DNA of 64,000 nt from Trachythela sp. YZ-2020 (lineage: Eukaryota > Cnidaria > Anthozoa > Malacalcyonacea > Clavulariidae). Each line of letters opens with the position of its first letter. Within the stretch, counting starts at the first letter, position 1. This document shows positions 1 through 59,933 of this stretch, one piece after another. Both the position numbers and the translations under genes were made by a program. Where the stretch lies: contig JADLSH010000052.1 in NCBI GenBank assembly GCA_016169945.1, positions 124,001-188,000 of the forward strand, read 5' to 3'. Under the pieces are notes generated by a model, which ran no database searches, was not told the DNA's origin, and saw only the letters and a program-made list of their open reading frames with translations.

Positions 1-78
1 AATCAGAAAGGAGGAAACCTACTAGCTGCCTTACTACCGCCTGTGTTAAGTGTGCTCAGTAGCTTACTGACAAAATGA
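1..78 (+). CDS. C-terminal end of an upstream element gene (partial)
   Basis: The frame is open from base 1 to a TGA at 76-78 and encodes about 25 residues. The stretch is glycine-leucine-proline rich and hydrophobic (GGNLLAALLPPVLSVLSSLL). The stop overlaps the next start codon as ATGA (75-78), the tight packing expected of a viral or Polinton gene cluster. Short hydrophobic Gly/Leu-rich tails occur in minor virion proteins of adenovirus-like elements, but that is only a suggestion. The rest of the gene is outside the window. Confidence 0.35.
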   Translation, partial: NQKGGNLLAALLPPVLSVLSSLLTK

Positions 79-819
79 AACATACCAAACGAATGGTATT
101 GGTTCCTGAGGATGTGTTGCATAGATACGAACTGAAAAAAGGCTTGAAACGTCACCGCTTATGGCTAACATGATGCATAAAGATACGGCAATGTCAAATA
201 TTCTTCAACGTACAGATATGCCTGATGCTGAAAAACAAAAACTATACTATGCGAATATGGAACGTTATCTAGATCTAAGACGTCAAAAGGCCGGACAGTC
301 AAATACCAACCGTTCGGATAGCACCTAATGCCGAAAATAAAGAACCCAAAGAAAAAGCACAGTTGCCTGATGCGACCATTGTCGACCATATGACCTAAAA
401 CAATGCGTCCAAGAGCCACAGCACTTTTAAACCGTTTGAAAGCAAGACCGGACATTATTTCTTGGGATGAATCTGGACAAGTCAATTTGGACGGTAGGAA
501 AATTCCACAATCAAACATATCAGATCTCATCAGCGATGCCATGAGAGGGAGAAAGAATTTTAATCCTACAGGTTCGAAGGAATTTTTCCGTGCTTTATCA
601 AAGATGAATATGCCTACAGATCTTGTAAGGAATGAGGAAAGATTGAGACAAGCCCAAATGGACAGTTCGTCTGGCGAGGAAGATGTTCATTACAGCAGTC
701 CGCAACGTGCAAGCCAGCGGGGTACAACCTCACAGCGTACAACCCCCTTAAAGTATTTGCAAACCTTTCTAAAGAAACGCGAAGAACAACCTCAAAAACA
801 ATGGCTTAGATATAAATAA
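75..819 (+). pseudogene. Conserved Polinton-neighbourhood gene, frame-broken
   Basis: A start at 75 (MKHTKRMVLVPEDVL) opens a reading frame that is interrupted near 165, near 310 and near 398. The last piece (403-819) is a 138-residue open stretch containing ARPDIISWDESGQ and a region rich in RKNF/NPTGS, then a Ser/Gln/Arg-rich tail. The pieces follow one another in order with small frame jumps, so I read this as one gene of about 240 residues with at least three breaks rather than several genes. I recognise the pattern as a recurrent uncharacterised protein of cnidarian Polinton-like loci, possibly a virion-core or capsid-associated protein. That function is inferred from neighbourhood only. 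The + strand and the ATGA overlap with the previous gene suggest a late-type cluster. Confidence 0.5.
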
Positions 820-916
820 ACAATATGTAATTGTTTTGAAGTTAATAAATGTTAAAGTCTTTTCCTGTCATTTTTGGCACGGTAACAAGACTCTTCTTAC
901 TTGTCATTTTTGTTTT
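820..916. other. Convergent intergenic gap in the Polinton-like element
   Basis: About 100 AT-rich bases separate the end of the plus-strand cluster from the end of the large minus-strand gene. It contains TTAATAAATG (AATAAA-like) for the plus strand. I see no open frame. Confidence 0.3.
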
Positions 917-3369
917 TTAAAGCGCTAGAGGCATTGTGGGACTAGAAATCAAAACACAGGTACTTTTACAGTACTGCCTAGCCCAATACGCTGTATAAGT
1001 TAACAAACAGCAAATCTTTTCCTCGTGGTAAGATAAATGGGTGCCGGAAATGACAATCTTACAACCATCTATTAACTGCTCTTTCTGTTGCTCCAAATTA
1101 TCCCCGGCCTGGTATAGTATGCCATCATCCAGCTTGACAACCAGTCTTTGCTGTCCACAGTTGTCCAAATGTGACCAATTGCAACAACGATGTGTGTTGA
1201 TCCGATGGTTAACTCCGCCAAATTTCTCATGTGCTTGTAGGGCACCATTTCTTCCCTTGTTAGCGTTGGTAGAACTTTAGAAGGCGTCATCGATTCCTCG
1301 TGCACCTTTCTTAACTTTGCTTTTTCTTCTTGCATCTCTGTCATTACCTGTTCCCGCAGATTTTCCATGTCTTCGGCAAAAGCTATGTTGCAGTAAACCA
1401 CAACATTCCTTTGCGGTGTGCGACCCCATCCAGTTATATTTAGGATAGCCAGTGGTTTCTCGTAAAGAGTAAGGTAATTTCGCTTAGGATCTCTTATCTC
1501 CTCTTTGTCTGCATCCGTCAGGTTTTCGCGTAGGTACGTTTCGACTTTCGATATACTTGTTGGAATAGCAGAGTCGTAGCGTTCCGTTTTGGTCTGTCGC
1601 TACTAACATAATGTACTTCTCTCCAAACTGGGTTTAGGTTTCCCGCATGGCCATAATGTTATAAGATCCTAAATGCAGTTCTTTTAAGTGGATGATCTTG
1701 TTGTCGGAAAAAGCGCTGCTATAATTATCCAATAACCGTAACCTGTTCTTTTTTTCTGCGATCGCATCTTCGAAAGGTTGTCGGCTCTCTCGTATTTCTT
1801 TTGCCGCTTCCTTAGCTAGCCACATCTTTCCACTGCTCCTTTCGTTCTTTCTCTGGGGTACTACTTCGCTTTTCGGGTAGCTTAACTTCCAAAATATCTG
1901 CTCTGGACAACTGCATATCCACTTTGCAGTTCTTGTTTCCCTGCACGTGTGCAAGGTAAGGCGTACAGTGTTCGTGGGACCCTAAACCAGCTTTCTCCAA
2001 CAGTTGTAAATTATCTTCATTACTTCCTTCGTACCAGCTGTAGATATATACCACCGTTGGACACCAAACGCGTTGCAAAACCAGAGTCTAGAGCGACACG
2101 GCGACTTTTAAAATAACGCGCACCAGAGATATCCAGGAAAGTATCTTTAGTTTTTCTCTCCTTATCGCCACTCGAGGATTTAATCTGATCGCACACTTCC
2201 ACAATGTCCACAGGTAGTTTCGCGCCCAGGGTCAGGTTGGAAAGACACCAGTTTTCTTTCTCAGACCATTTCTCTATAAATTGTCCACTAATATTTTTAG
2301 TGACTTCGTTATAAGTATAAACTAACAATCCAACATCGCGTGTTCTGTCTATGACCACCAAGCTGTGTAACATGGAGTCACAGTAAGCTCGCCAAGTGTC
2401 GGCGAAAGGTGTAGAGTAAACCAGAGGAGGTGGAACATATTCTGTAATACGTAGCAGAGTATCCTCCATAAGGTTGTCACTTGGAACACGGTCTTTGCAA
2501 TAAAAGGTCACTTCGGCCCGCGTCAAACCACGATCTTTGGCTAAATCGCGAGCGTTTGCCAAACGTGTATCTTTCTGGCAAACCCAATCTTTCCAGTGCT
2601 GCCCAACGATTTCTCGAACGCTCTTGCTCTCCAGCATTTGTACCATTTTGTTGTAAATTTTACAACGAGTTGTTAGATCATCCACAGTTTCCATGTACGT
2701 AAGGCAGTTGTTGCCTACTTGATCGGCATTATCCAATATCGTTCTGCTCGCATCTTTTGCACTTCCTTGGACACGAAATCCTTTCTTCGTTGTCAAATAC
2801 TCTATTACATCGTCCTTGTCAAAGCTGCCAGCGTAATCCATGGTGACGTCAATATCTTTTAAAAAGATATTTCTTATCTTGTACTCGTCGGATCTTAAAA
2901 ACTTGAGAACGTCGCTGTATTCCTTGTCCGCACAGGCAATTTTAAATTCTTGCACGTAGTAGGCAGTTTCGTCAGTCTCTTTCGATGCGAGCCTCCCATA
3001 CACTTTATCCAAATCCTCTGCTTTTAACTCCTCCTTAAGGGGCGACAATGCGATAGCTTTGACTTTACATTTCTGCAAGCCATAGCGGTCGAGCATATCT
3101 CGAATGTGTTTGTTGACAAGGCCGACTTCCGTGTAGGTCTTCTTTGCTGTCACGAAGTACTCAGGCATGTAGACATAAAGCAAAAAGTTGTCTACAAATT
3201 TGTCACTACACGACGCAAAACCCACACCATCTTGCTTTCCATTCGTGTTAAAATTAACAGTCCCTGTTCTGTTTAGGGAGTTCTCTTTAGCAATCTTCTC
3301 TAACACAACAGTACTCTTGTTGGATCGACCAATAATAGCACGACGAGAAAAAAGACCAAGAGCTTGCAT
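917..3369 (-). pseudogene. Large unknown element protein with replication-initiator-like motifs, frame-broken
   Basis: The longest intact part (3369 down to 2020) encodes 449 residues starting MQALGLFSRRAIIGRSNK. The gene then continues through frame changes near 2030-2075 and 1830-1950 and through a poorly open stretch near 1400-1630, ending around 917. The original product was probably about 800 residues. Mid-protein features are DVTMDYAGSFDKDDVIEYL, then RCKIYNKMVQMLES, then LTRAEVTFYC. This order (acidic DVxxDY strand, lysine-rich IYNK strand, R-x-E-V-T-F-Y strand) resembles replication-initiation proteins of the Rep_trans / phage initiation-factor type, but I cannot identify the catalytic tyrosine with certainty. 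The C-terminal part is charged and probably coiled. A structural or virion role is not excluded. A TATA-like box lies ~90 bases upstream of the start. Confidence 0.45.
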
Positions 3370-3455
3370 ATTACCAAGATGACTTGTAGATTTTAAGAGA
3401 GATGTTCACAGCACGAAGTTGTAACACAGAATGAGAAAAAAGCTGCGAAGGACGC

Positions 3456-3464
3456 TTTATATAA
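3456..3464 (-). promoter_or_regulatory. TATA-like box for the large minus-strand element gene
   Basis: On the minus strand the sequence reads TTATATAAAG about 90 bases upstream of the ATG at 3369. The 3370-3676 interval is the divergent promoter region shared with the plus-strand zinc-finger gene. Confidence 0.4.
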
Positions 3465-3676
3465 CGCATTTTTGCAAGCTAATCACTTTTTGTAGTGACG
3501 TCATAATAGCGGAGCTTGACAAGCCCGGGCTTGCCCAGGTTAGGACGCCTGGTCAGCAATCGGGCTATATAGTGCCTTATAGGGCCAAATCGGGCGTGAA
3601 CGGGCAAAATAAAATATCTAACACAAGAAAAAATGAGCCAATTATTGTTAGGAACTCGTTTAGCAAACATCTAAAA

Positions 3677-4021
3677 ATGGGTCGTACACGTAGGAACTGC
3701 CCTGTTTTTGGTTGCGGTAGTACAAATCTTGCTAGACTAGCAAATCATCTCGATCAAGTACATGGCATGGACACAGAAGAACGCAAGAAGTGGTTAAAGT
3801 GGAGTAAGATAGGAATATGTGTACCTCGACAGAATGAAGAACCAAAGGAATTCAATATGGAGGAAAGTGTCGAAAAATTATTAAAGCGACAAGAAGAGAT
3901 GGAAAGAAAATTTAATGTTTACTTACGATCCGCCAAATTAAAGCATGGACAGTACAGTAAACGAGAACATTCTAACTCTGGGGAAACAAAGAAAGAACAT
4001 AAAGAATGGTTAACATATTAA
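3677..4021 (+). CDS. Small C2H2-type zinc-finger protein of the Polinton-like element
   Basis: The frame is open from 3431, but the likely start is the ATG at 3677 (AAAAATGGG context), giving 114 residues starting MGRTRRNCPVFGCG. The N-terminus has a finger C-x4-C-x10-H-x4-H (CPVFGCG...RLANHLDQVH) followed by an RKKWL helix. The rest is a charged, probably coiled-coil region (EKLLKRQEEMERKF). The same finger with the same downstream RKK motif heads the packaging ATPase of the element at 22576-25853, but here no ATPase follows. The role is likely nucleic-acid or virion-DNA binding; this is inference. It is transcribed divergently from the 917-3369 gene and overlaps the next ORF by 16 bases. 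Confidence 0.6.
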   Translation: MGRTRRNCPVFGCGSTNLARLANHLDQVHGMDTEERKKWLKWSKIGICVPRQNEEPKEFNMEESVEKLLKRQEEMERKFNVYLRSAKLKHGQYSKREHSNSGETKKEHKEWLTY

Positions 4022-4206
4022 TTGGCGTAGTAAACTACGAAAAGGTACCTCTGTTGCCTGCAAACAAGAAACGGGAAAAGTGTAAAGTGCTGGATGTTAA
4101 ATCCGTGGAACACAAGGGACTAAAACGTAAGATTCTGCTAACAGAAGATGGAACAGTTTACAAAATAAAACGAAAACAGTGTAAAAGCTGGACAATATGT
4201 TTATAA
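4006..4206 (+). CDS. Small basic hypothetical protein of the Polinton-like element
   Basis: A 66-residue lysine-rich ORF starts MVNILIGVVNYEKVPLLPAN and ends in KRKQCKSWTICL. It overlaps the 3' end of the zinc-finger gene in another frame, which suits a compact element. An AATAAA follows at about 4241-4246. I do not recognise a family. It could also be the shifted C-terminus of the preceding gene. Confidence 0.35.
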   Translation: MVNILIGVVNYEKVPLLPANKKREKCKVLDVKSVEHKGLKRKILLTEDGTVYKIKRKQCKSWTICL

Positions 4207-4353
4207 CTGTATATTTGTGTAAATAATTGTTATACCTAAAGGAATAAACTTGTTGAAAACGTTAATCCGTGTGTTAATTTATGCGCGTATCCAAGCAAAG
4301 CGGTGTCCTAGCTACATTATTTTGCGCTAAAAATGTATACATTTTCGTATTCG

Positions 4354-5037
4354 TTAAACCCCCTTTTTCCTCCTTTTGAAAGGAAGAGAAATGGGGGGAT
4401 CGAGCACAGGTGATCGTAATACAAAACGGACTTGATCATGGGGAGGAATATCTTGGGCGATGGTATTCAACAAATTCTCGAATATTTCATGAAGCCGATT
4501 ATCGAATTGGGAAAGTTCCAAATGTGCAAACATGTCCGTAAATTGAATAGCATAATCCGTACCGGTAGTCTTAAACTTTTTCACTTTTACTTGTTTAACA
4601 TTAGTTACAGTAAAAAAGTTATCGCTAACCTCATCAGATGTTCCTGTACCGTCGTTTACTTCGTCAAACGATCTTTTCAGCCCACGGCCAGTTTGTACGA
4701 AAGGCTCGTCGTTTATCTCTTCGTTCATATCATCATTCGCTTCGTCAAAAGACCTTTTCTGTCCACGGCCAACCTGCAGTATTGGTTCGTCGTCTCGCCA
4801 GTTGATCAAAAACTGTTGTCTTTGTTCTGGGGTCCACTTATCGGTAAAATCAGGTACAAGCCCTAGTTGGGTGTTTTCCATTCGCCATTCCCTTATACGT
4901 TGAAAGATTTCCATTTGCCTTTCAAACACTAGCCGTCGTTCGGTTTCATTGAAGGCACACGTTCTCTCCAAGGAGCTTAACTCTGCTAGAGTTTCACAAT
5001 TGCTTATTCTCGTATTCATTTTCAAATGTTTCTCCAC
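4354..5037 (-). CDS. Polinton polymerase-associated N-terminal domain protein, detached
   Basis: The ORF has 227 residues; ATG at 5037 or at 5019 is possible. The protein has a helical Glu/Arg-rich N-terminus and two near-identical nuclear-localisation-like repeats (GRGQKRSFDEAND and GRGLKRSFDEVND). Its conserved C-terminal domain contains DYAIQFTDMFAHLELSQFD, a central helix, and HDQVRFVLRSPVLDPPISL, then ends in FKRRKKGV. I recall this last domain at the N-terminus of large cnidarian Polinton/adintovirus-type proteins that continue into a protein-primed family B DNA polymerase. Here the frame stops right after it and no polymerase motifs follow, so it is either a truncation or a stand-alone version. 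The recall is from memory and a profile search would decide it. A TATA-like box lies ~45 bases upstream. Confidence 0.5.
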   Translation of the reverse strand: MEKHLKMNTRISNCETLAELSSLERTCAFNETERRLVFERQMEIFQRIREWRMENTQLGLVPDFTDKWTPEQRQQFLINWRDDEPILQVGRGQKRSFDEANDDMNEEINDEPFVQTGRGLKRSFDEVNDGTGTSDEVSDNFFTVTNVKQVKVKKFKTTGTDYAIQFTDMFAHLELSQFDNRLHEIFENLLNTIAQDIPPHDQVRFVLRSPVLDPPISLPFKRRKKGV

Positions 5038-5079
5038 CGAAAGATAAATGCACTATGAGCTGTTTCGCTCAAAACCCCG

Positions 5080-5088
5080 TATTTATAA
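5080..5088 (-). promoter_or_regulatory. TATA-like box upstream of the 4354-5037 gene
   Basis: The minus strand reads GTTATAAATA about 45 bases upstream of the ATG at 5037, a good distance for a compact viral-type promoter. Confidence 0.4.
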
Positions 5089-5604
5089 CGTAATATGACA
5101 TCTTAGTGCGCACACCCTTTAAAAAATCAATGTTTATAGTCTCGCCAAACCGTACGTACAATGCGTACGTACAATACGTACGTACAATGCGTTTGAGGCA
5201 ATCTCGTGTATTTACGGACTATACTGTGAACACAAATAGATTTTTAAACTCTTTTTTTCCTTCGTCGGTTAAAACTTTTAATATAGCTAACTGTAAATAG
5301 ATTTAAATTGAGTTGATAAAGTCGTGTAAATTTTCTCCAATAATTGTATTTTAATCTATACGTTATGTATTTTGCACGCAATTCAGCTCTGTAGCTGCAA
5401 AGTGTAATTTTTAATAATAAACTATTCTATACTATTCTATTCAATGCGTACGTACAATACGTACGTACAAGGCGTACGTACAAGGCGTACGTACAAGGCG
5501 TACGTACAAGGCGTACGTACGGAAAATGACGTCACTTCCCAATATGACGCACGCGACGCCATTTTGAATACTAATTATACGCTATATAGCCAGGATAAGC
5601 TACT
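5089..5604. repeat. Subterminal repeats and right terminus of the Polinton-like element
   Basis: Tandem units built on the palindrome GTACGTAC (12-14 bp, GCGTACGTACAAG type) occur at about 5150-5195 and 5443-5520. A TGACGTCA site follows at about 5527. The terminus then runs to AAGCTACT at 5604. Tandem subterminal repeats inside an AG...CT end are also seen, with a different unit, in the element at 22576-25853. No gene is supported here. Confidence 0.6.
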
Positions 5605-5964
5605 TCTCTCCTAATAATATACATGAAATATTTTCTCAATTCTCATTGGCTGAGAGCAGTGCAGGTTTTTAGGATAGCACTCGTCCATCGGACTCGTGCA
5701 ATTTTGATAGTCTTTGAAAAACTCACTCGTGCATGTTTTTTCCAAGTTGCACTCGAAACTATTACCTATACTTATTGGAGTTTGATGTCTAGCCCGGTGC
5801 ACTTTGTGTTATATACATCCAACGACGAAGGAAGTATTATATAACTGATATTGTAAACCAGCCTTTAATTCAAATTTTATCAAGTTAACTGGATTATTGT
5901 TCTAATGACGTTTTCACCAAATCATTTTTTAATCAAAGTTTTGTTATTAATTTCTTGAATTTAG
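5605..5964. other. Intron sequence of the BMAL-like gene, no gene seen
   Basis: AT-rich DNA lies between the end of the Polinton-like element and the PAS-B exon. It contains ACTCGT/ACTCGTGCA-rich repeat sequence at 5640-5760 that resembles a short interspersed repeat. Short open frames here overlap on both strands and look fortuitous. Confidence 0.4.
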
Positions 5965-6233
5965 CTTCACCAAGATAATTGGTTATTGTTCAGACGAAGT
6001 AATCGGGAAATCAGCGTACAGTTTCTTCCATAAAGATGACCTTAAAATCGTGGCTGAAGCCCATCACAAGGCCTTCAACAACAAGTCTAGCTCACGACTG
6101 GAAGTGATATACAGATTCCGTGCGAAGGCTGGACACTATATTCCATTGAAAACTACATCAGTTGTGTTTCGCAATCCTTATTCGAAAGAAGTTGACTATA
6201 TTGTCACATGCACGGAATGTTGTTATAAGGTTG
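5965..6233 (+). CDS. Bmal1: BMAL-like exon: PAS-B domain
   Basis: The acceptor TTGAATTTAG ends at 5964. The open frame carries [47 protein letters not shown] and [15 protein letters not shown], in the order of a PAS-B fold (PAS core, HPDD-like helix, then the beta-scaffold with the NPYSxEVDYIV strand typical of ARNT/BMAL). The donor is either GTTGGT after 6229, giving phase 0, or GTGAAA after 6233. The second leaves one base and joins in frame to the exon at 14636. The fold mediates heterodimerisation with the CLOCK-type partner. Confidence 0.8.
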
Positions 6234-9200
6234 GTGAAATATATTATCTTATTATTTTTCGTCTCAGTCACATCGTTATTGTAGAAGGGTGCTTCCAGTC
6301 ACACACACTGCTGTTTTTACACTTGACCAATGAGGTGTGGCTCTGATTGGATCTATAGACATAACAAACAGTATAATGAAGTTTGTTTATTGTGGAAGGC
6401 CATGCATTGTGGAAGGCCATGTTACACGGAGCAATTTTTGCTGCAACTTACAACGCAATTTCTGCACAGAGCCATGTTATGTAGGAATGTACGCAAAGAA
6501 ATCGGTGAACATGGCCCGCTTTTCACTCCACTCATTTCTTTGTTGACTTCTGGGCATGTTTAGCAAGAAAAGTTTCGGCAAAGTAAAACGAGATTCATGC
6601 TCACAATTTCTCTGCGAATATACGTTCTACCTAACATCGCTCTGTGTCAGAAATTGCGTTGCAAGTTGCAGCAAAAATTGCCTCGTGTAGCATGGCTTAA
6701 TGTTCAATATTATTATCGGTCTTGGCAAGATTGTAAATTTTTATTTGCCTTGTTTTGTATAGTTCCATTTCACCAAACATGCCAATAAGTGCAACGCAAA
6801 GAGGGACAGAAACATGGTAAGAAATGATAGCAACTTCATCATGGCACAAAGTCATTCGATGCTATATTTAACTTAGTTGAACTAGAATACTGGGTTTGAT
6901 GGATAATCCAAGTGAGTAGATATATACACAATTTAAGACCTAACCAGGAACGGTTGTGAAAAATGCAACACTAGGCCCTCTGGCAGGAATTGAACCCACG
7001 GCCCTGCGATTCCGGTGCAGCGCTCTAACCAACTGAGCTACAGAGGCCAGTTGCTGAGCTGTAACCGTAAGTTATGTATATATAGGTTATCGGGTGTGCG
7101 GGTTGTGATAAGGTAAACTTCAAAGATTTTTTTGCACTTCACTTGGTTGAACTAGAATACTGGGTTTGATGGATAATCCAAGTGAGTAGATATATACACA
7201 ATTTAAGACCTAACCAGGAACGGTTGCGAAAAATGAATCGCAGGGCCGTGGGTTCAATTCCTGCCAGAAGACCTAGTGTTGCATTTTTCGCAACCGTTCC
7301 TGGTTAGGTCTTAAATTATGTATATATACTCACTTGGATTATCCATCAAACCCAGTATATTTAACTTAGCCTCAAGAGAACTAGGCCAGCATTGTTGCGG
7401 AACCATTGTTAACAAAACGCCTGCTGAGGCGTTCACGCTGGCCGCGAGCAGCAAGATACCCAACCTGTAGTTTGGAGTGCAATAGAGAAAGGGGGTGGGG
7501 TTCTCCCTGATGAAAACTTTGGTCGGTAGGTCATTTTCGGCCAAGAGCAAGGAGGCAGTAGTGACTGAAGGTTCAGCTTAACCCCCCCCCCCCATAAAAA
7601 AGGGATGGTTAGGGCTGAACGTAGTAGATGCGATTGTTTACTTGCTTTAACTGCCTAGCTAGCAGTCCTTTATTTTACCCAAGAAAAACAACGAGTAACA
7701 GAGGTTACAACGAGTAACGAGGACAATATCGTCTAGTTGAAGATTTCGTTTTGGAACTTTCCACTTGTTAAATCGTTGTAAGCCATTGAGATATTCAGCA
7801 GACCATCGTTTCCAGAAATGTTGTGTCAATGCTTGACAGAGTTTCCATCTTTTTAGACCAAGAATGGGCTCTTTATAAATGCGGCTAGGTAGAGCTTCTA
7901 AAGGACGTCCAATTAGAAAATGCCCAGGAGTAAGTGGAGATATTCCATCATCATCATTTGTATCAAGCGAAGGTATCAGTGGACGAGAGTTGAGACAGGC
8001 TTCGATTTGGCAGAGGGTGGTTGTCATTTCTTCGAAGTTTAGTTTAGTTTCCCCAACTATTCGCTTCAAGTGCCGTTTACAGGACTTTACCCCGTTCTCC
8101 CAAACCGAACCATGATGAGGACCGGTGGGTGGGCTAAACATCCACTGGATGCCTTGGGACGAACAAAAGTTCATAACAGATTCTTTCATATCTGGTCTTT
8201 GAAGTAGTCGATAAAGTTCCCTTAAATCTTTATTCGTACGCCGAAAACAAGTCGCGTTATCGCTCCAAATCTGCGTGGGTTTTCCTCTTCGAGAAACAAA
8301 GCGACGAAGTGTAGCAAGGAATGCTTCCGCCGTGAGGTCTGATACTAATTCGATGTGACACGACTTGGTTACGAGACAAACAAAAACTGCTACATAGGCT
8401 TTGCGATACGTTGGCTTTCGAACTGATCCAATCTTTAGTGTAAACGGTCCAGCATAGTCTACCGAGACTCTCTCATTGGCAAAGGTGGGCAAAACACGTG
8501 CTGACGGAAGCTGACCCATCAGTTGAGTTGTTATCTTTGGAGATGCTCGCTTGCACACTACACACTCGCGTATCAACTTACGAACGACTCTACGTGCACT
8601 AATGATGTGATAGGGCTGATAGGTATCCTGAAGAGATCCTAACGTAAGCTTTGGACCAGCATGACACAATCGTTTATGTTCACTCTGTACGATGAAGGTT
8701 GACAGATAATGCTTTCCATGAAGAATCAGTGGATGCTGAGATTCGTAATCTTTCATTGACTGCGAAAGACGACCACCAACTCTTAATAATCCGTCTTTAT
8801 CCAAGAAGGCATTCAAGGATTGCAAAGGATCCGACAATGGTAATGGGTTTTTCTTTCTTAACAATTTGACAGTGTTTGGGAAAATTTGAGCTTGGGCTTG
8901 TTTAATCAACCTGGATAGTTCAGACACTGCTAGTGGTGTAGAACTGAATAGGTTTGAACGGGTGACCACGCGAAATACCCAGGCAGTAACTCTCACGAGT
9001 TGAATGTAACTGGAATATCGAGTAATGTCAATCACAGGCTCCGTCGAGGCTGTATCTGTCGTTGTTTGCAGAGTAACTTCTTCCTTCTCTTTTAGTTGTA
9101 AGCAGTCTTTCGTGACACCCAGCGATTGGAGAGCTTCCAGTGAAGGAGGTGCAGTAAATTTCGATGGCCAATTCGACTGATTTTGCTTAAGCCAATCTGG

Positions 9201-12200
9201 ACCAGTCCACCAGAGGGGGTGTTCTTTAATTTCCTTTGCTAATATACCACGAGATCCGACGTCCGCTGGATTTTGTAAACCATCAACGTGCCTCCATCTT
9301 TGAGGTGGTATCAAATCTTGTATCTTTGCAATTCGATTAGCTTCAAAAGTTTTAAACCGCTGGCTAGTGCCATAGATCCTGTAAAGAACGATTGAGCTGT
9401 CTGTGAATGCATGTAAATTCAACAATGGAATGGAAAGGATTTCTTGAAGATGTCTCATCATCTGCGCAAGTAAAAGAGCTCCGCAAAGTTCGAGACGAGG
9501 TAGTGAAACTTTCTTGATTGGTGCAACGCGTGTTTTAGCCATGACAAGAGATATGTGAACTTAACCTGTTGTGTTAGTACTTCTCAAATAAACAGTACCA
9601 CAATAAGCCTTTTCACTGGCGTCAGAAAAACCAATAAGCTGTTGATCAACAATCTGGAAATGTATTGGCGTATAGCAGCGAGGGATTCTTAAGTTGGACA
9701 GTTGAAACAAACTTTCTCTCCAGTTCATAAAGTGTCTCTGCACGTCCGGTGGCAATGGCTCATCCCAATCGATGCTTTGTTTCCATAGCTGTTGGAAAAT
9801 GATTTTCACAACAATCGTGACACACGAGATAAGACCAAGTGGGTCGAAGATCTTTGAAGAATCAGATAATACGTTGCGTTTGGTAAGGTGGGACTGATCA
9901 ACGGAGAGCTCAGCAGTAGAAAATCGGAAATAATCTTGATTTGAGTTGTATTCTATGCCAAGTGTCTTAACGAAGTTGTCTGAATCTCCAAACTTAGATG
10001 TAGTTTGGCTGCTTCGAATTTCTTGCGGAATAGAGTTCAACACTTCAGTAGAGTTAGAGTCCCATTTTTGAAGTTTGAAACCGCCTGTGGCAAAGAGATC
10101 TTGGAGCTGTCGTTGTAACAAGATGGCTTCTTGCTTGGTTTGTACAGAAGGTAAACCATCGTCCACGTAAAAGGATTCCCTTACGACTTTGGCAGCGAGC
10201 GAGAACTTTGCTTCGTTGTCTTCAGCCAGGCGAAATACCGAATTTGTTGCAAGAAATGCCGCACTTGCAATTCCAAACGTGACTCGTGTCATTCGATAAT
10301 CATGGACTGGATCATTAGGATTTTCTCTCCACAGAAACCGATGGTAATCTCTATCCTCAATAGCTAAGCCAACTGCCCGATACATTTTGGAAACATCAGT
10401 GGTAAGGACATAAGGATGTCTTCGGAAACGAATGAGAACATAGTTGAGTGGGGAATATACAGTTGGTCCGACAAGAAGCTGATCATTAAGAGAGACACCA
10501 GAAGTGGTTTTCATTGAACCATCGAAGACAACACGTAGAGGAGTTGTTGCTGAATCTTTGTAAACAGCATGGTGGGCCAAGTAAAAGGTATTCGAAGAGG
10601 GTTTGTTGAGATCATTATCGGGAACTCTTTCAGCATGACCAGAGGAAATATACTCATTCACAACATTTGCGTAATCTTCAAACTGTTCGGAACGACGAAG
10701 ACGACGTTCAAGAGACAAGAAACGACGTAAGGCGAGAGGTCGTGATTCCCCCAAGGTTGATTTCTGTGGTTTGAAAGGGAGGTTAACAATAAAGCGACCA
10801 TTTTCTTCATGCTTGAGATGTTGGTTGTAATGTTGTAATGCTAATTTGTCAGTGAGTGACACAGGTGCTTTAGGTTTAGGTGGCTCCTCCAATGTCCAAA
10901 ATTTCTTCAGAGTTTCTTCGCAACTAGGATAAGCAGTAGATACATGGAGAGTTGTGACTGATTCTGTTGTTGAACGATTACCATTGACATTGCCAAACAA
11001 GACCCAACCAAAAAGGGTTTCTTGAGCTGACGGCGTTCCTTTGGGTCCAAGAATAAGCCCTTGTTTCAAGATGTCGTGATAAGCACTTACGCCAAGAAGA
11101 ATATCAATTGGTTTCGATATATTGAATGCGGGATCTGCTAACTTGAGAGAGAACAGGTGAGGCCAGTGACTTTTTGGAAAGGAAGTGGTTGGTAGACACC
11201 TGGTTAAGGACTGAAGAACAATAGCTTGCACATTTGATAGAGTAGAAGAGCTCTGAGTAGATTTCAAGTTAATGTTCACAGTACTGTTACTTAGGGTAGA
11301 GCACTGGGATCCTCCAATTCCGTTTATGGTGATTTCCTGTTTAGATCTTCTTAACTTAAGGTGTTGAGCTAGTCTTTCGGTGATGAAGGACGCTGTTGAA
11401 GCTGGGTCGAGTAGGGCTCGAGCTGTTATTTGTTGACCAGATGGGGAGCTTACGATGACTTCAGCTGTCATCATAAGAACATTATTCAAACTGTTTGCTT
11501 TGGGTGTCGCTACGTAGCTACTGGTGGGTGGATTACTACTGGTGGGTTCACTACTGGTGTGTGGATTACTACTGGTGGGTTCACTACTGGTGGGTGGATT
11601 ACTTGGTGGAAAGGGGTTTGGGAAAGGGGGAAAATTGTTGTTTAGGGCACCGTGCTTTGACAATTCAGGTTTGTTTTCAGGTGGTTTGGAATCATCAACA
11701 TGCAATAAAGTGTGATGCCTTTTGCCACATTTAAGACATGAATGTGGTGAAGGACATTGCTTTGCCATATGTCTTCCCTTCAGACAATTGAGGCAAAGTC
11801 CCTTTTCATACACAAAGGCACGCTTCTCGGAAAGGGATTTCTCTTTGAAGGCTTGGCAATAAGCTATGCTGTGTTTCTGCCCATTGCAAGCTGAACACTT
11901 AACTTGTGTGGTAGTGGTATGGACTGATTCTGATTTGCCAAAATTCCCAGGACTGTACGACTTTGGTTTCTTGTTAAAGGGCTGAAATTTTCTTTGATTT
12001 CCATCAAAAGAAGTTAGTTCAGTAGTTGTTGCTCTGAGGTCAAGAAATTCAAGGAATTTGGTATAGGAAGGTACATCCTTTTCTGCTTGTGTAAATTTTT
12101 GCCATTCAATCATTGTTTGGGAGTCAAGTTTGGACTCGCCCAATGTTGTCATAAACCTATCAAAGTCAAGCTTGTCTTGCGCTTTCAATGATCTTAAATG

Positions 12201-15200
12201 ATGCTGGAAAGTGTCATGTAACTGTCTCAGTTCTGAGCTTGTGCCATCTTTAACTGGTTTGACATTTAGCAAAGCTCTAGCATGAGCACGATGGATAATT
12301 TGGGGGCGATCAAAACGAGCCTTGAGTGCTGCAATAGCTTCAGGGTAAGCTTCTGCTACTGCGTCGATTCCTTCTATTGCATCTCTAGCCCTTTTAGTGA
12401 CAAGAGATTTCAGAAGATACTGCATGCGAAGTTGATTATCTAATTTCTTCGAGTTATGTATTGTTGCTTGAAATTGTTGCCAATAAGACTTCCATTTAGT
12501 GGTTCCCCATCAAATGTAGGGATATTGAGTGGAGGAAGCTTCACAGTTTTTTGTTCATTTGCTTCAGAACTTTCTAGCGCTTTGACTTTATTTAACAATA
12601 CGTTAAGTTCATGCTGTTGTTGAGTGTTTTTAACTTCAAGCTCTTTATTTCTGCTTTCCTTTTCAATTTCAAGCTCTTTAGTTTGCTTCATTTGTTCACG
12701 GCGATGTTGCTTTATGAGTAGAGATAATTTCTCTTGATTTGACTTAATTTTGTCAAAATAACTAGATAAAAGATCATTCCAATTTCCGCCATCTACACCA
12801 TCTGAATCTGGTATAGATGAGTCAATTTCACTTGTAAAACTATCAAGAGATTTCTCACATTCAGAAATTTGATTTCTGATATCGATAAGATCTTCAATGT
12901 CGCTTTCATTAGGCTTATCAGTTGTTTCTTGAATATTTGCAATTGTTTTGTCTATGTTAGTCACAATACGATTCCACTTTCGTTCTATAATTGCTTTCTT
13001 ATCTTTGCTATCAGATGATTTTGTTTCATGTGAAACCTTGGTAGATTGAGTGTTCATAAAAAATACGAGTTGACTTACAGTTTCTCTGATTCGTTCGTCA
13101 TGAGCATCCAGCTCTTCGTAGTCTTTTGCGATCAGTTCTTCATCCTTAGGATCGATTTGAGCGTTGGCCAATAAATATATTTCCTGAAATTGATTATCCA
13201 AATCACGAAGTTCCTTCAAGTATTGTTCAGCACATACAATGTCGAATTGTGAGCTTTCGATCTTTTGCACCAGTGGTACGACTTTCTTATAAGATTGGTG
13301 ATTTTTCGCTTTGTAATGCTTCGTTTCTGTGCTAGCGTTTCACGAGATTCTTGCGACATGTTTACGTTCTACGATTTGTCTTGTTTCAAAATGAGTCAAA
13401 CGACGCCATTCTTTCGCTGATTTACATCCGTCTTCGAAGGACCATAATAATAGATGCGATTGTTTACTTGCTTTAACTGCCTAGCTAGCAGTCCTTTATT
13501 TTACCCAAGAAAAACAACGAGTAACAGAGGTAAAACTTATATTTTCTTTTTCTATTAAAAACATGTGTTCCTAAGAGCAATAGAGCATGCTTAATGCGCA
13601 TGCGCTTGCTAACTTATGCTAAATACTTTATGTAATACTTATAACGCGTGTCCACGTAGGTCTGAGGAAAATCGTGTCAAAATCGTGTCTGTTATTTTTA
13701 GACAATAATGAGATGTTTGACATATGTATACTGCTAGTAATAACTAAGGAAGGACGTGTTTTTTTATTCATAAGAAAGTTGTTCATTTCATCAACGACGG
13801 TAAAACCAAGTATTCTGCTTCAGAATATTTCATTGTGATTTTGTGAGATTTGAAATTTCCTTAACTAATTTATTATTCGCGATCATATCTTGTACGGTCT
13901 AACACAAGCAATTACATAGAATCCAAAAAGGTGTAGCAAATGCAATCTCGTATTTTTGACCCGTAGCTAATTAAACACGGCCTGTCAAATATATGTAAAA
14001 ATATTTGTATATGTATATTAATATAAATTTCTAAATTTTAACTGTATATTACCTTAGACACGAGATGGATATTAATTAAATTATTATTAAATATTATTAA
14101 TAAACAAACCTTGTCGTAAATATATATTAAGTCGATTGGTTACTTCCAAATTTTGATAAATATAACTTACTCTACTATAATTTACATCCGTATTGGTTCG
14201 TGTTGCTGTGAGTGTCTGTTGGCAAGTTTGGCTAACGCTTATTTATATCTTTGTTAGCTGGTTAACGGTTAAACCCACATGGTTACTATTGTTAAAACAT
14301 ACTTTAATCGTTTACATAATTCTATATTTTTTGTAACCTTTGTCTCGTACTACTGTATTGTGAGTACTTGTCCGAATGCGAAGCTTTGAATTGCCAAGGA
14401 AACGGTATACAAGCGTTAGTCAAATTTGTCCGTTATCACGCCGAAATAGAACATAAAGTGGGAATTTGCCTTTCTTTATAGCACTCTAACTAAGGAAATA
14501 GTTTTTGCCAGAAAACTGTGAAACAAAAGGTTTGTTGTTTGTTGAAAAAATATTTTGAATATATATTTGTTTTCCGTAACGATGATTTCGAAGTTGGGCA
14601 AATATGGAAACGTTTGATGAAACATCAAGTTTCAGATTGCCAAGTGGCACACCAGGGCAGTGCATCCTTTCCAGGTGTTTCTCTGAGTTTCTAAGATTCT
14701 CTGAAATATCAGTCTCTGAAATGAAGATTATTGTATGATTGTGTTTAACTATATTTGTTTGCTGTAGACGTCATCGGATGGTTCTTCAGAACAACAAGAA
14801 ATGGATGAAAATCTACGCAATTTGTTGATGAAACTGGAAGATCTTGACGACAATGAAAGTATGGATTTGTTATTACCAGATTTGCATATTTAGTAAAAAC
14901 TGCTTTTCGGTAATGCGTTTTTTACGTACGTGTACACACAGAAAAGTCTATAAGGAGCTGTTTATATGGGGCGAGCTAGCCCTGGTACCAGAGCTGGCCC
15001 AGTTTTGGCGAGTTCCCACGTTTGTTATTATTTCCTATTAAATTTCATCTTACATTTTTATGGGAACCGAGCTGGCCCGTCTAAGCGAGATCCCGCCTCG
15101 ACTGACCCGAGATCTCGCTTAAAGCGGACTGAAATTTTCCATACAAACGCGATGACCCGAGCTGGCTCGCCTACGCGTGATGAGAATAAATGCTGTATTT

Positions 15201-22540: not shown

Positions 22541-22575
22541 CGGTGAATGTAAAAGGCGGAATGGCATTCGAAATG

Positions 22576-23093
22576 AGTAGCTTATTCGGGCTATATACCG
22601 TCGGAAGTAATTAGTATTCATACGTCACGCCTGGAAGTAAGAATAATAATGAGATGACGTAACATAAAGCGTTGCGTAACATAAAGCGTTGCGTAACGTT
22701 TAAATACTAATAGCGTTGCGTAACAGAAAGCGTTGCGTAACATAAAGCGTTGCGTAACATAAAGCGTTGCTTAACGTTTAAATATTAATAGCGTTGCGTA
22801 ACATAAAGTGTTGCATAACATCCATACCGAGAATATAAATTGAGGACATAGATGTGTTCATACGTCACGCCTGGAAGTAAGAATAATAATGAGGTGACGT
22901 ACCCTCTGAGGTGTGAAAAAGTTTCGCACGAGGCTGTACGGAATGTTTGTTGTCGAGAAATCAATAACAGCAGAGAGTTTTGTGTTTTGATTTTATTTAA
23001 ATTACACACAACAATTTAGATGTTTCTCTTAATAAGTTTTGGCTTTATTGTTCGATAGCCAGGGTTTCTTTAGCCAAGGCTCGGACCGTAGGC
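22576..23093. repeat. Left terminal inverted repeat (~515 bp)
   Basis: Nearly identical in reverse complement to 25338-25853. It contains repeated GCGTTGCGTAACATAAA units at 22664-22820. The inner end reaches into the last ~17 codons of the ATPase gene. Confidence 0.85.
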
Positions 23094-24433
23094 TCGTCTT
23101 CGTGCAGATTCACCCACTTCATATGGCCTGTAGATTGGTGCCTTATTTTGACAGGCCAATAATTTTCATCGTTGATTAAGACACCCGGACGGCTAGGATC
23201 AACACTATTACGCGAATTTTTATACATCTCTATGATAGCATATCCTTTGGGAATGACTCGAACGCGATCGGCTTTGTCGGTGTAGTTTAGCCACTCGGGG
23301 ATAGTTGCATCCGACCAGGTAATATATGTAGGTTGTTTTCTTCCAGGCTTGGTTTCGACGCCAGAGACCGGTGTGGGTGTAGTCACTTTAGTTTGGGTGG
23401 TGAAGGGATAAACATGGCATTCGCCAAATAGGTCTCCAAGAACTTGCTTATCGGCTGGTGTGTCAGGCTTGTTATCCACCAATAAGTATCCAAACGGTTT
23501 TTCGGTCTCTTTGTAATAGGCGTTCATGAAGCGGTCTCCATTCTTATCAAACATGCGTTCTCCAACAATTCCAATTTGTTTCCTATCGCTTGGACTTCGG
23601 AAGAGAGCCAGATATTGGGCATTTCGGCTGATATCCGTATTATATTTCCCCTTAGGAAACATCTTTTGCAGCAATAAGATAACGCTCGCGTTTCGATGGC
23701 GGCCTTGGGTAAACAAGCGAGATACCACAGGACTGTCTGTCGCTTCAGCCATCAAATCGTCCAGGATGATGATGTTGTTGTACCGCGTATCAATCTCGCT
23801 CAAGTTCTCAGACAGCACGGGTACACTTCTCTCAAACCGGATGCTTTTTCCGAGAGACTTTTTCAAGACGTCATAACATTCTTGCCACTGGTTGTAGCAC
23901 CAACGAATGCGAATACTTTTTTGCTCTTCGTACACGATACGATTGTTTTCCAAAATTTGTTGGACAAAATACGTCTTTCCACTTTGACTCGGACCCACGA
24001 CCAATAGCGAAAATTTATGGCGGAAGTTGAATTCCGAATAGGGTTTGATGGTCAAAGATGCTTTAGCTTGTATTGCTTTTGGTTTCTTAGCTGGCAATGA
24101 GTGTGCACTTCGGCTTACACGTTTTTCTCCTGGCTTTTCGGGGTCCGGATATGGAGATTGATATTGCCATGATGACACCTGGGCTTGCTTAAGAACGTGT
24201 TGTCTCTTTGGTTCTGACAATTCATACACTCTGTCTTGCTGCTGCGATAAATTGTTTTCATTTGCTTTGTATACAACAAATTTTACTTTCGGCTGAAGTT
24301 TGGCTTCTTGCAAGTACTTTTTTCTTTGGTTAATATCTAGCAAATGTACATCCGCGAGATGACTCGCCAATCGTACGAGATATTTCGCACCGCAATCGGG
24401 AACAGGACAATCACGACAAACTCGCTTAGCCAT
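23045..24433 (-). CDS. Zinc finger fused to A32/FtsK-HerA-type DNA-packaging ATPase
   Basis: The ORF has 462 residues and looks intact. Residues 6-30 form a finger (C9-x4-C14-x10-H25-x4-H30, CPVPDCG...RLASHLADVH), then come RKKYL and a basic linker (about 95-125). The ATPase domain follows, with Walker A GPSQSGKT at 147-154, Walker B IIILDDLM at 221-228 and a sensor-like strand VILLLQK at 251-257 after TQGRHRNAS. This layout is that of poxvirus A32 / Polinton / virophage packaging ATPases, which pump DNA into capsids. A C-terminal ~100-residue extension (TYITWSDATIPEWLNY...) is unfamiliar. It is divergent from the plus-strand gene across a 225-base spacer. The function is by motif; the partner capsid must come from elsewhere. 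Confidence 0.82.
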   Translation of the reverse strand: MAKRVCRDCPVPDCGAKYLVRLASHLADVHLLDINQRKKYLQEAKLQPKVKFVVYKANENNLSQQQDRVYELSEPKRQHVLKQAQVSSWQYQSPYPDPEKPGEKRVSRSAHSLPAKKPKAIQAKASLTIKPYSEFNFRHKFSLLVVGPSQSGKTYFVQQILENNRIVYEEQKSIRIRWCYNQWQECYDVLKKSLGKSIRFERSVPVLSENLSEIDTRYNNIIILDDLMAEATDSPVVSRLFTQGRHRNASVILLLQKMFPKGKYNTDISRNAQYLALFRSPSDRKQIGIVGERMFDKNGDRFMNAYYKETEKPFGYLLVDNKPDTPADKQVLGDLFGECHVYPFTTQTKVTTPTPVSGVETKPGRKQPTYITWSDATIPEWLNYTDKADRVRVIPKGYAIIEMYKNSRNSVDPSRPGVLINDENYWPVKIRHQSTGHMKWVNLHEDEPTVRALAKETLAIEQ

Positions 24434-24499
24434 GTTTACAACTCGAAGAACAGATGCAACAGTTTGCTATCTCCTGATCTTTTGTTTTTTATCACAGGT

Positions 24500-24600
24500 C
24501 TAACAGGCCAAACAAGCCAAACAGGCCAAACAAGCCAAACAGGCCAAACAGGCCAAAAAGGCCAAACAGGCCAAAAAGGCCAAACAGGCAGGAAAGGAAG
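24500..24600. repeat. 10-bp tandem repeat in the divergent spacer
   Basis: About ten units of GGCCAAACA(G/A) variants (AACAGGCCAA) lie between the two divergent genes, exactly where promoters are expected. It could be regulatory or simple slippage. Confidence 0.7.
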
Positions 24601-24658
24601 TAAAATAAAAAGATAAAACTAACTCTCTGCTATTCTTTATTTTCTCTCTGTTGACGAC

Positions 24659-25319
24659 ATGCTCATAAAAGTGCCGTGCTGCTCAATAGCAAGTCATTTC
24701 TGGACAGTCAGTGGTAACGGAATGAGCTGCAAATTTTGCGGAAAACAATTTAGCCGCGGTTACAATCTACGCAGACACGAAATGGAATACTGTCCACTAC
24801 GCGAACAAGAGAGATATGTCAGAAACAGAAAGTCAGATAATGGATTCCGAAGACGATGATTCAACAAATGCAAATTATGATTCTGAGAGCTCAATGGAAA
24901 CAGTCGACGAGTCTGAAGAAGGAGAAAATGAGTCAGAAACTGAGGATCCTTGGATGCCTTTGGTAGAAGAAGCAAAGCAAAGAAGTAATACAGCTTTTGA
25001 GGAAATGAAAGAGAGCCTTGTAAACAGCGGTCTTGATGAGCAATCTGCTACCGACAAAGCTTACACCAATATTCTGCCTGAACTCCAGAAGGAACTTGAA
25101 AATATTTATATGCAACGTCTCCTGTGGATGAAACAACTAAAGAAAGATCCCGTACATAGAAAAATAATGAAGACAAAGGATGCGCTTGTGGAAAGCGATG
25201 ACTTTGATCCAGAAGAGGCTTTAGAAGCAGCTATTGATAAGAGGAAATTTCTTATAAAAAGACTTTTAAAGGATTACGATTTTGATGAGGAAGATGATGA
25301 CCCAGAAAGCGATGATTAA
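24659..25319 (+). CDS. C2H2 finger plus acidic helical protein of the mini-Polinton
   Basis: Two frames overlap. 24659-24859 (66 residues) holds a C2H2/C2HC-like finger CKFCGKQFSRGYNLRRHEME, then YC. 24816-25319 (167 residues) starts MSETESQIMDSEDDD, has a Glu/Ser-rich acidic stretch, then a helical domain (DPWMPLVEEAKQRSNTAFEE, LQKELENIYMQRLLWMKQLK) and an acidic tail. I recall this pair as one protein in cnidarian repeats. A single frame change near 24810-24820 would join them, or they may be overlapping genes with the second ATG used. The function is unknown; a DNA-binding or chaperone role is possible. Confidence 0.6.
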
Positions 25320-25337
25320 CTCGGTCAAACGGTCTAA

Positions 25338-25853
25338 TACGGTCCGAGACTTTGCTAAAGAAACCATGGCTATCGAACAATAAAAGCCAAAACTTATTAA
25401 GAGAAACATCTAAATTGTTGTGTGTAATTTAAATAAAATCAAAACACAAAACTCTCTGCTGTTATTTATTTCTCGACAACAAACATTCCGTACAGCGTCG
25501 TGCGAAACTTTTTCACACCTCAGAGGGTACGTCACCTCATTATTATTCTTACTTCCAGGCGTGACGTATGAACACATCTATGTCCTCAATTTATATTCTC
25601 GGTATGGATGTTACGCAACACTTTACGTTACGCAACGCTATTAATATTTAAACGTTACGCAACGCTTTATGTTACGCAACGCTTTATGTTACGCAACGCT
25701 ATTAGTATTTAAACGTTACGCAACGCTTTATGTTACGCAACGCTTTATGTTACGCAACGCTTTATGTTACGTCATCTCATTATTATTCTTACTTCCAGGC
25801 GTGACGTATGAATACTAATTACTTCCGACGGTATATAGCCCGGATAAGCTACT
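25338..25853. repeat. Right terminal inverted repeat (~515 bp)
   Basis: Reverse complement of the left repeat. Its inner end holds a relict of the ATPase C-terminal codons (reading VRDFAKETMAIEQ and a stop), though no ATPase gene precedes it here. Repeat units at 25612-25770 match those of the left arm. Confidence 0.85.
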
Positions 25854-27954
25854 GAAATGATTGCGGAATGAATGCGGAATGACATGCAAATGCAAATTTC
25901 GCGACATTTCCCGACATTTCTCTGGTGTTTTTAATAGTATGGATTTGAGTGATTCAAAAGAAAGATGCATTTGTTTTAAAGATACATTGGTATGGCGATG
26001 TGAATGTTTATTGAAGGAACATAGCAGGAGGCTATATAAATTATAGGATTAAAAAGGAAGGATTATATATATTAATAGTAATTCAATGTATACGATTAAA
26101 AAGGAGATTGCCTCTTTGTAGCAAGAGAACATCAGATCCATCTCAGGCGCTCTGCCAGGTCAGCCGACCAGGACAAATAGAACCTTTCACGGTTTGTTCG
26201 ATTTTAGAAAAATGGCGAAGGTTGGTAGTTATATCGTTTGCGGTTGGTGAAGATATATATCGCGACTATAATTCACATCGACACAATTAAAACAAATGCA
26301 TACCTATTTCAAATCACTTAAATCCATTGTATTATCGGTGATTCCATCGTGTTTTGGCGTTTGAAAACTCAGAATGGCCGCAAAAAGCGTCAGAGAAATG
26401 TCGCAAACTAAAATTATCACGAAATAATCTCGCGAAATTTTCTTTCGTATGCCATTCCGCATTCCATTCCGCATGCCATTCCGCACGGCCATTCGGCCTT
26501 TACATTCACCGGTCAGAATAGCAACAGTTTTTTACACACGCGCTAATTTTCGCGCGTGGTACGGCAGCAAACCTTCGCGGTACTGACTTTTTGCTCAGTT
26601 TAAATTTCGCACACCTATGGTGCAAGCAGGAGCGTGTCGACAGGGGGTGTGACGCCCCCCTAATAATTCTAAATATTAAAAAGTTGGTCCAAAAATGGTT
26701 TGTTGTTGGTCAAAAAATATTGAGAAATTATGCGTGAGACTATGCGCTGAAATTATAGAATGTGCAATTAACGCAAGTACAATAGTTCTAAATATTAAAG
26801 AGTTTGTCAGTTGTTGATTAAAATATATTAAGAAACAATACGTTCTAATTTTCAAATATTATGCGCTCCTGAGTACGTAAGCAGTTGGTCAATGGAGTCA
26901 ATGGACTAGTGCAGAATTACTGGAGTGTAGCATACACGCATTACCTCAACATCATTGTTTGATCCTTTCTATCTTAAGTTAAAAAATACTTGCATTTGAA
27001 AAACTTACTAAAAACAAGATGGAGTGTCAGGACAATAAAGGCAAATGAAAGCTGTTTGGGCCAGTTAAGGTTACGAAGAAATTTCATTGTTAAATTGTAA
27101 TCGCTAAACATGCTTGTTAGCAACGTAATATTTATAACCCTTTCAGAGTTGAAGTGATATTTGTGTAGTTCAAAATGAACGTTAGAATTAAGCGGCTTAG
27201 CGCCTTTTTTAACTAATAAACTGGGGTGCCAAGGCCCAATACACCAGGTTTGTTAGGTCCCTTTTAGTTGATGCCCCCCCCCCCCCCCAACTTACGATTT
27301 CTTAACAAAGCCCTGGCTTAGCAGAGTCCCTGTTATATCTGATCATACAACTATTCAGGTTTTTATCAATTCTTTCGTTCGCCACGCCCCTGGGTGCAAG
27401 GGAACACAGCAGACTGAAATTTCTCTATTTTTCAGTATATTTACAATAAATTTGTTGATTATTGTCTTCAGCAAATACGTATAAAACTATATGAAGTATA
27501 AAAGTATATCCATACTTCCCACTGATAAAGAGTTTAGCGGGCGCAGTTTGTCTTCAAGGCCTAACGAAACCCGAGATATTATACGAGGCGCGTCAAACTC
27601 ATTAACCTAACTTATGATATCAAAATTATATTGCTGTTTATGAACAAAAATAGAGGAATTTCCCTTGTATTACAAACAAGTATTTGCAATTCTTCAAGTG
27701 AGTAAATGACGTCACAATGAATAAGTTCATTTCCCCTAAAATGTTATTATGAATATCGTCGTGAAAAGGACCCCTCTTGGCAAACAGCCGCCTAATTCCG
27801 TTGTTTTGCCACTATTCATTGTGACGTCATATTTGACATCAATACTTGAAGATGAGGTCACGCAATATTTGGCAGAGGAAGTTCACATTAGACAGCGGTC
27901 TTTAAAATTTTCTCAGTGGGGTCTTTAGGTAGCCCTACACGAAATGTATATTTA

Positions 27955-29376: not shown

Positions 29377-51370
<21,994 letters not shown>

Positions 51371-59751: not shown

Positions 59752-59933
59752 AATAATCGAAATTAAATAAGTTTAAAGCGTCAATAATTTCCGTTTACTC
59801 GCCTCGTAAAAGTTCCGTTTACTGTTGAATACACTCTGGGTCCGCCTGTAATTCTTCGTATTTATTTGCTTATTTATACCGAATTACTTTTCCAGTCCTC
59901 TTAGCTTCGTTTTTTCTAGATCCTCGTCGCCAG

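Follow-up and report, generated by a model that had tools for sequence, protein, structure and literature searches.

Why would a DNA element of 3.3 kb keep an intact gene for a packaging-type ATPase when it has no integrase, polymerase or capsid gene of its own? The element in question occupies positions 22576-25853 (3278 bp) of a 64,000-nucleotide stretch from the anthozoan Trachythela sp. YZ-2020; this whole stretch, C141:124001-188000 of the assembly, is called the window here. This genome harbours Polintons (Mavericks), and the element is very probably one of their satellites. We base this status on AGTAG ends and 6-bp duplications as in a full Polinton, on the missing integrase, polymerase and capsid genes, on the presence of many copies, and on two genes under selection.

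The element and its immediate flanks contain the following features.

22570..22575: target-site duplication GAAATG, left copy
22576..23090: left terminal inverted repeat (TIR), 515 bp, AGTAGC end
22658..22830: 17-bp subrepeats of the GCGTAACATAAAGCGTT type in the left TIR
23045-24433, minus strand: ATPase gene, 462 amino acids, no internal stop, GPSQSGKT and ILDD present
23756..23767, minus strand: Walker B motif ILDD, residues 223-226
23972..23995, minus strand: Walker A motif GPSQSGKT, residues 147-154
24299..24433, minus strand: Cys/His stretch at the N terminus of the ATPase (roughly residues 1-45) that by eye looks like a zinc finger
24494..24592, plus strand: 9-bp tandem repeats of the ACAGGCCAA type between both genes
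24659..24859, plus strand: part of the second gene that encodes the zinc finger (zf-C2H2: 23.2 bits against a cut-off of 25.2), in a frame that differs from that of ORF2
24816-25319, plus strand: open reading frame 2 (ORF2), 167 amino acids, divergent, acidic C-terminal part of a zinc-finger protein
25338..25853: right TIR, 516 bp
25854..25859: target-site duplication GAAATG, right copy

An exact GAAATG directly flanks each end of the element, which starts with AGTAGC and finishes with GCTACT. With gaps counted, the two TIRs share 93% identity over their whole length; complementarity reaches 99% in one ungapped arm (122 nt) and 98% in another (318 nt), and the remaining mismatch is mostly a register shift among the 17-bp subrepeats. 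The 22-base terminus, with at most three mismatches allowed, occurs three times in the window and not once in 100 shuffles; its third occurrence (5583-5604) marks where another Polinton-type element, lying at the window's left edge, has its right end. The gene plan consists of two divergent genes, the ATPase on the minus strand and the acidic ORF2 on the plus strand, with the final codons and stop of the ATPase gene falling within the left TIR, and the further frames of at least 60 amino acids either overlap these two genes or sit in the TIRs (a 74-residue frame in each). An earlier model-made description of the stretch, the sequence-only reading, had claimed the GAAATG duplication, AG...CT ends, inverted repeats of about 515 bp, the 462-residue ATPase and the divergent acidic gene, all of which are borne out. 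The TIRs also hold repeated TGACGTA/TACGTCA-type motifs (22614-22661 and 22854-22901), with GACGTCA near the end of the neighbouring element; we take these motifs to resemble CREB/ATF sites.

What kind of ATPase does the element carry? Its assignment to the A32 type, made in the sequence-only reading, agrees with the profile search: Pfam Pox_A32 matches the window ATPase with 30.0 bits, above the cut-off of 22.8, and also matches 42 of 42 aligned family members (E up to 0.1). Residues G152, K153, T154, D225 and D226 are invariant in an alignment of 17 sequences and at least 90% conserved among the 42. Relatives are found in other anthozoans, both corals and sea anemones (Exaiptasia, Actinostola, Porites); scans of viral contigs, prokaryote genome contigs and plasmids returned none from outside the element's own genome, and a sequence search of the PDB gave no useful match. 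The N-terminal Cys/His stretch matched no finger family in a Pfam scan and is 49% identical over 43 residues to a small gene of a Rep-bearing Polinton (L052 3474-3602; L numbers are loci in the assembly).

The claim that the element retains a packaging motor and nothing else does not hold, as a conserved zinc-finger gene accompanies the ATPase, its ORF2 part having a median ratio of nonsynonymous to synonymous divergence (dN/dS) of 0.37 (residues 40-150, 161 pairs). In the window copy the finger is out of frame with ORF2, so the second gene of this copy is interrupted; of 15 copies checked, at least 9 have finger and acidic part in a single stop-free frame. There are 548 relatives of ORF2 at E up to 0.001, and among the best 120 listed of these 548 a C2H2 finger often comes first, followed by an acidic linker and a conserved region. 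One relative of the ATPase (P0002) and one of ORF2 (P0121) come from contigs of the same length, 13,322, which suggests that the gene pair is present elsewhere too.

Where could the missing functions come from? Searching the whole assembly (578 Mb, 396 contigs) with the TIR, a check proposed along with the sequence-only reading, yielded both copies of the same structure and a full-length Polinton with the same ends. This 14.5-kb Polinton (C45:45862-60380), reached through one TIR match, is flanked by GTCGTC and has TIRs that match each other at 98% over 241 bp. Compared with these, the window TIR shares 91.4% identity with the left one (outer 280 bp) and 90% with the right one (246 bp). The genes of this Polinton code for a DNA_pol_B_2 polymerase (125.5 bits), an integrase matching rve (48.0 bits), a GRF zinc ribbon (62.1 bits), an adenovirus-type protease scoring 19.6 bits, slightly below the cut-off of 21.3, and a 223-residue ATPase with GQSQSGKS and ILDD, whose Pox_A32 score of 17.3 bits is under the cut-off of 22.8. 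Other frames look like the major and minor capsid and further Polinton proteins; Pfam named no family for the two capsid-like frames tested. When the 3278-bp window element was compared with seven proteins of this Polinton, only the ATPase matched: there was no match to the protein-primed DNA polymerase (PolB), nor any frame of PolB size, no match to the retroviral-type integrase, and none to the protease or to one major-capsid-like and one minor-capsid-like frame. In the assembly the Polinton ATPase frame is open in many copies, and searching for the integrase produced 117 rows, with identities as low as 55%, of which at least 33 are near-complete and stop-free at 95% identity or more (alleles not collapsed); with so many near-identical open integrases, the helpers look recent. 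A study of vertebrate Mavericks describes 6-bp duplications, TIRs and AGT-repeat ends, in line with the present elements (PMC8097293).

As judged by sequence comparison, the ATPase of the small element is a distinct lineage, about 30% identical to the helper's and joined to a zinc-finger-like stretch, and is not the helper's gene retained after deletion. Satellite and Polinton ATPases share 31% identity over 203 residues (E 1e-34), and the small ATPase is 30-35% identical over the core to the Polinton-type ATPases of the same genome. A tree of 23 cores has a branch with support 1.000 that separates the satellite genes, together with all 13 database relatives included (hand-picked from 120 listed), from the Polinton ATPases and a third ATPase class. 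The genomic surroundings differ as well: with the first 84 Polinton-ATPase rows and all 117 integrase rows compared, a listed integrase lies within 15 kb of 60 of these 84 best Polinton ATPases (median spacing 5.1 kb) versus 0 of the 92 listed satellite ATPases, and within 30 kb of 2 of the 92, near the chance expectation of about 1. Separation from the Polinton-type ATPases themselves is less clean, with 4 of 93 rows within 30 kb of 129 places where about 1 is expected (129 of 151 Polinton-ATPase matches were used, leaving out the rows at 43-46% identity and the last row). One of those four mixes both kinds: a 9.5-kb chimera on C230 (C230:6055843-6065315, L042 444 to L053 2915), with the duplication AACGTA, carries a Polinton left arm with its ATPase and, between the arms of a 317-bp inverted repeat, the satellite gene pair. 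The third ATPase class (L054 1112-2491, minus strand; 460 amino acids) has a C2H2-like start, and its rows, at 43-46% identity, have frames of up to 536 amino acids; the frames beside the L054 gene are presumably Polinton-like, so satellites may not be the only elements with finger-ATPase fusions.

Do the small elements form a family of their own? The TIR search returned 54 matches, and at 16 places, paired by eye and including two second alleles, these form inverted pairs 1.9-3.8 kb apart. Twenty stretches were read first, followed by wider and additional ones. We tallied 28 sites, corresponding to 29 rows, that were left once two allelic pairs and one double row had been merged; loci L036 and L037, being Polintons, were excluded, and L026 and L039 were counted as one site. 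Both genes are retained, at least in part, at 23 of the 28 sites. Random deletions with differing breakpoints, which the sequence-only reading had named as the finding that would speak against it, are not what is seen: the copies follow one two-gene plan. A perfect 6-bp duplication flanks 14 of the 28 sites (12 by script; L034 and L010 by eye), a tally that leaves out the duplication of the C230 chimera (L042), itself one of the 28. The duplication matches at five of six positions at L017 and L020, does not match at L018, L046 and L048, and is ambiguous at L029 and L033; automatic end-finding left 9 of 29 rows without ends and 6 with fewer than five matching bases, and took an inner AGTAG in some. 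The 12 script-confirmed elements measure 1525-4189 bp. A protein search, drawing on 1943 first-look candidates, found at least 93 small-ATPase rows at 92 places; 75 of these 93 best rows are free of stops, an intact share that is biased upward because the rows are the best-scoring places. Fifty of the 92 listed places have one of 150 listed ORF2 places within 4 kb, in divergent orientation in 50 of 50 cases. Subfamilies represented by L030, L031 and L034 have TIRs of 880-1034 bp, with AGTAGAT ends outside the AGTAGCT end, and L035 is a 1525-bp derivative with a perfect duplication. ATPase deletions shared between L015 and L016 and between L018 and L022 were considered as cases of transposition after deletion; we rejected this, as each pair represents two alleles of one insertion.

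Purifying selection acts on the ATPase core. Across 246 pairs, the core (residues 128-340) has a median dN/dS of 0.16, with 230 values below 0.5 and 3 at 1 or above, and the window core compared with near-complete distant copies gives 0.10-0.14 (Nei-Gojobori, own script; pairs are not independent, and only those with synonymous divergence, dS, of at least 0.05 were counted). A neutral ATPase with dN/dS near 1, the other outcome that would have told against the sequence-only reading, is thus not what the pairs show. For the C-terminus (residues 372-462), the median is 0.59 over 164 pairs. When neutral decay was simulated, none of the 1000 runs still had an open frame at 72% protein identity. 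Measured against the window, dS of the core takes either low (0.06-0.16) or high values (0.31-0.58), that of the C-terminus is for the most part 0.06-0.18, a single value being 0.34, and ORF2 dS against L044 and L048 reaches 1.1-1.2 where core dS is 0.14; these differing groupings indicate that copies have exchanged core, C-terminus and ORF2 with one another.

How, then, might the element work? The reading as a satellite, already put forward in the sequence-only reading, stands on a coherent family, shared ends, missing mobility and capsid genes and a selected, separate ATPase; the part that fell is the notion that only the motor was kept. From established Polinton biology, the integrase and the protein-primed polymerase of a Polinton would act in trans on the satellite's TIRs, and the particle would be built from Polinton capsid proteins. 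At this particle, the finger-bearing A32-type ATPase could replace or join the helper's ATPase and prefer satellite DNA, a preference that might come from its own finger or from the adjacent finger protein binding satellite or TIR DNA. This joint account, a Polinton satellite that receives helper functions in trans and loads its own DNA preferentially with its own ATPase, is the one we consider probable. Selection on a motor in a small separate element requires a benefit to that very element, and self-favouring packaging is the simplest one, its main rivals being interference and a role outside packaging. Taken singly, the proposal that the motor serves self-packaging is, on the sequence evidence, evenly poised. 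The preference for its own DNA is the least secure step, as a motor acting in trans would help other satellites too, and copies with damaged ATPases exist. We propose more tentatively, and at slightly less than even confidence, that these elements are a long-lived lineage of animal-Polinton satellites that fills helper-made particles with the aid of a dedicated motor and its own finger-type targeting module, an animal counterpart of packaging-redirecting phage satellites with recently active helpers alongside.

The strongest alternative, which we regard as unlikely, accepts a real satellite and assigns its ATPase to mobilisation or replication, for instance as a TIR-bound translocase. The finger-like stretch and the TIR-rich architecture would suit such a DNA-bound factor, as would a family that stands apart from the Polinton ATPase at about 30% identity; however, the best profile matches of the satellite ATPase, and tentatively its best fold matches, are packaging ATPases, and its relatives within the genome are the Polinton-type ATPases. 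Less likely still is that the ATPase and the finger protein chiefly interfere with the helper by forming dead mixed rings with the Polinton motor, to the profit of satellite or host. Such a decoy would explain why a small ATPase coexists with a helper that has an intact motor of its own, and interference through a packaging-related protein is known in phage-inducible chromosomal islands (PICIs), as a report on Rpp describes (PMC6739421), but a dead decoy would not need the Walker residues G152, K153, T154, D225 and D226, all of which are kept. It is highly improbable that one Polinton gave rise to the copies by simple internal deletion and that the ATPase was kept by chance: deletion derivatives do occur in this genome (the window's neighbour and L035), but the ATPase differs from the Polinton's, finger and ORF2 are absent from the Polintons L036 and L050, and the common gene plan and low core dN/dS do not fit chance retention. 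A multipartite Polinton with mutually dependent parts, resembling a divided genome in having the ATPase on one element and the capsid on another, is just as improbable, as the full Polinton has a complete ATPase frame of its own, open in many copies.

The window holds further elements, the first of which has this position.

1..5604 (also L040 about 5391-10000): right-hand portion of the second Polinton-type element, about 7.2 kb overall, terminus 5583-5604

This neighbour contains a fragment of a Polinton-type ATPase (just left of the window), a small basic protein (by eye), a Rep-like gene, a finger gene and an N-terminal part of PolB; its right end resembles that of the satellite, and a left terminus was not found within four edits. 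It is probably a deletion derivative. We considered it as the helper and rejected it, as it has only the N-terminal PolB part and the ATPase fragment, and the C45 element is the better helper. Its Rep-like gene belongs to a class of about 600 amino acids found on Polinton-type elements (window 2020-3405 and L052 908-3202, both on the minus strand), with 136 homologues, no Pfam family common to the members, and no relative from a phage scan. An AlphaFold model of a relative, P0241 (pLDDT 86), gave as best Foldseek matches RepDE, plasmid rolling-circle initiators (E 0.004 and 0.007); VIA ranked TBP-like folds first. A rolling-circle-type initiator within a Polinton would be unexpected. Elsewhere, the octocoral Paramuricea clavata has a match to a neighbouring gene at 79% over 47% of its length, a tandem array of roughly 98-bp units, about 97% alike, spans 48222-50127 of the window, and long retroelement-type frames at 7659-13339 and 56529-59772 look by eye like integrase, protease and reverse transcriptase.

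Finally, we would like to place the element into the context of known systems. What seems new here is a probable Polinton satellite with its own packaging-type motor; among titles and abstract openings in the open-licence literature, we found no description of satellite, non-autonomous, defective or miniature Polintons. Polintons encode capsid genes. A selected packaging-type motor would be of little use unless particles form, which makes the satellite indirect evidence that animal Polintons package DNA. According to a 2021 paper, Maverick particles had not been observed (PMC8097293). The satellite makes Polinton packaging testable, with protected 3.3-kb and 14.5-kb DNA expected together, and if the account is true, packaging piracy would extend from phages to animal virus-like elements.

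With Polintons/Mavericks the element shares AGT-type ends, a 6-bp duplication, long TIRs, an A32/FtsK-type ATPase and TIR sequence in common with the local Polinton; it differs in its length of 3.3 instead of 14.5 kb and in lacking any PolB, integrase, protease or capsid match, and from the C45 Polinton in particular in an ATPase of another lineage with a finger-like N terminus and in the finger/ORF2 gene, which was not found in C45. Non-autonomous TIR transposons resembling miniature inverted-repeat transposable elements would likewise move in trans through shared ends, but the satellite has two genes under purifying selection, one of them an ATPase. Virophages and Polinton-like viruses resemble it in their A32-type ATPase, TIRs and short duplications (PMC12220804). 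Unlike the present element, these viruses encode their own capsid proteins. A functional likeness would exist to the PICIs, which are also small dependent elements with a packaging-related protein of their own; the present element is eukaryotic and TIR-bounded, and it carries an ATPase rather than a protein like Rpp, which partners the small terminase subunit (PMC6739421).

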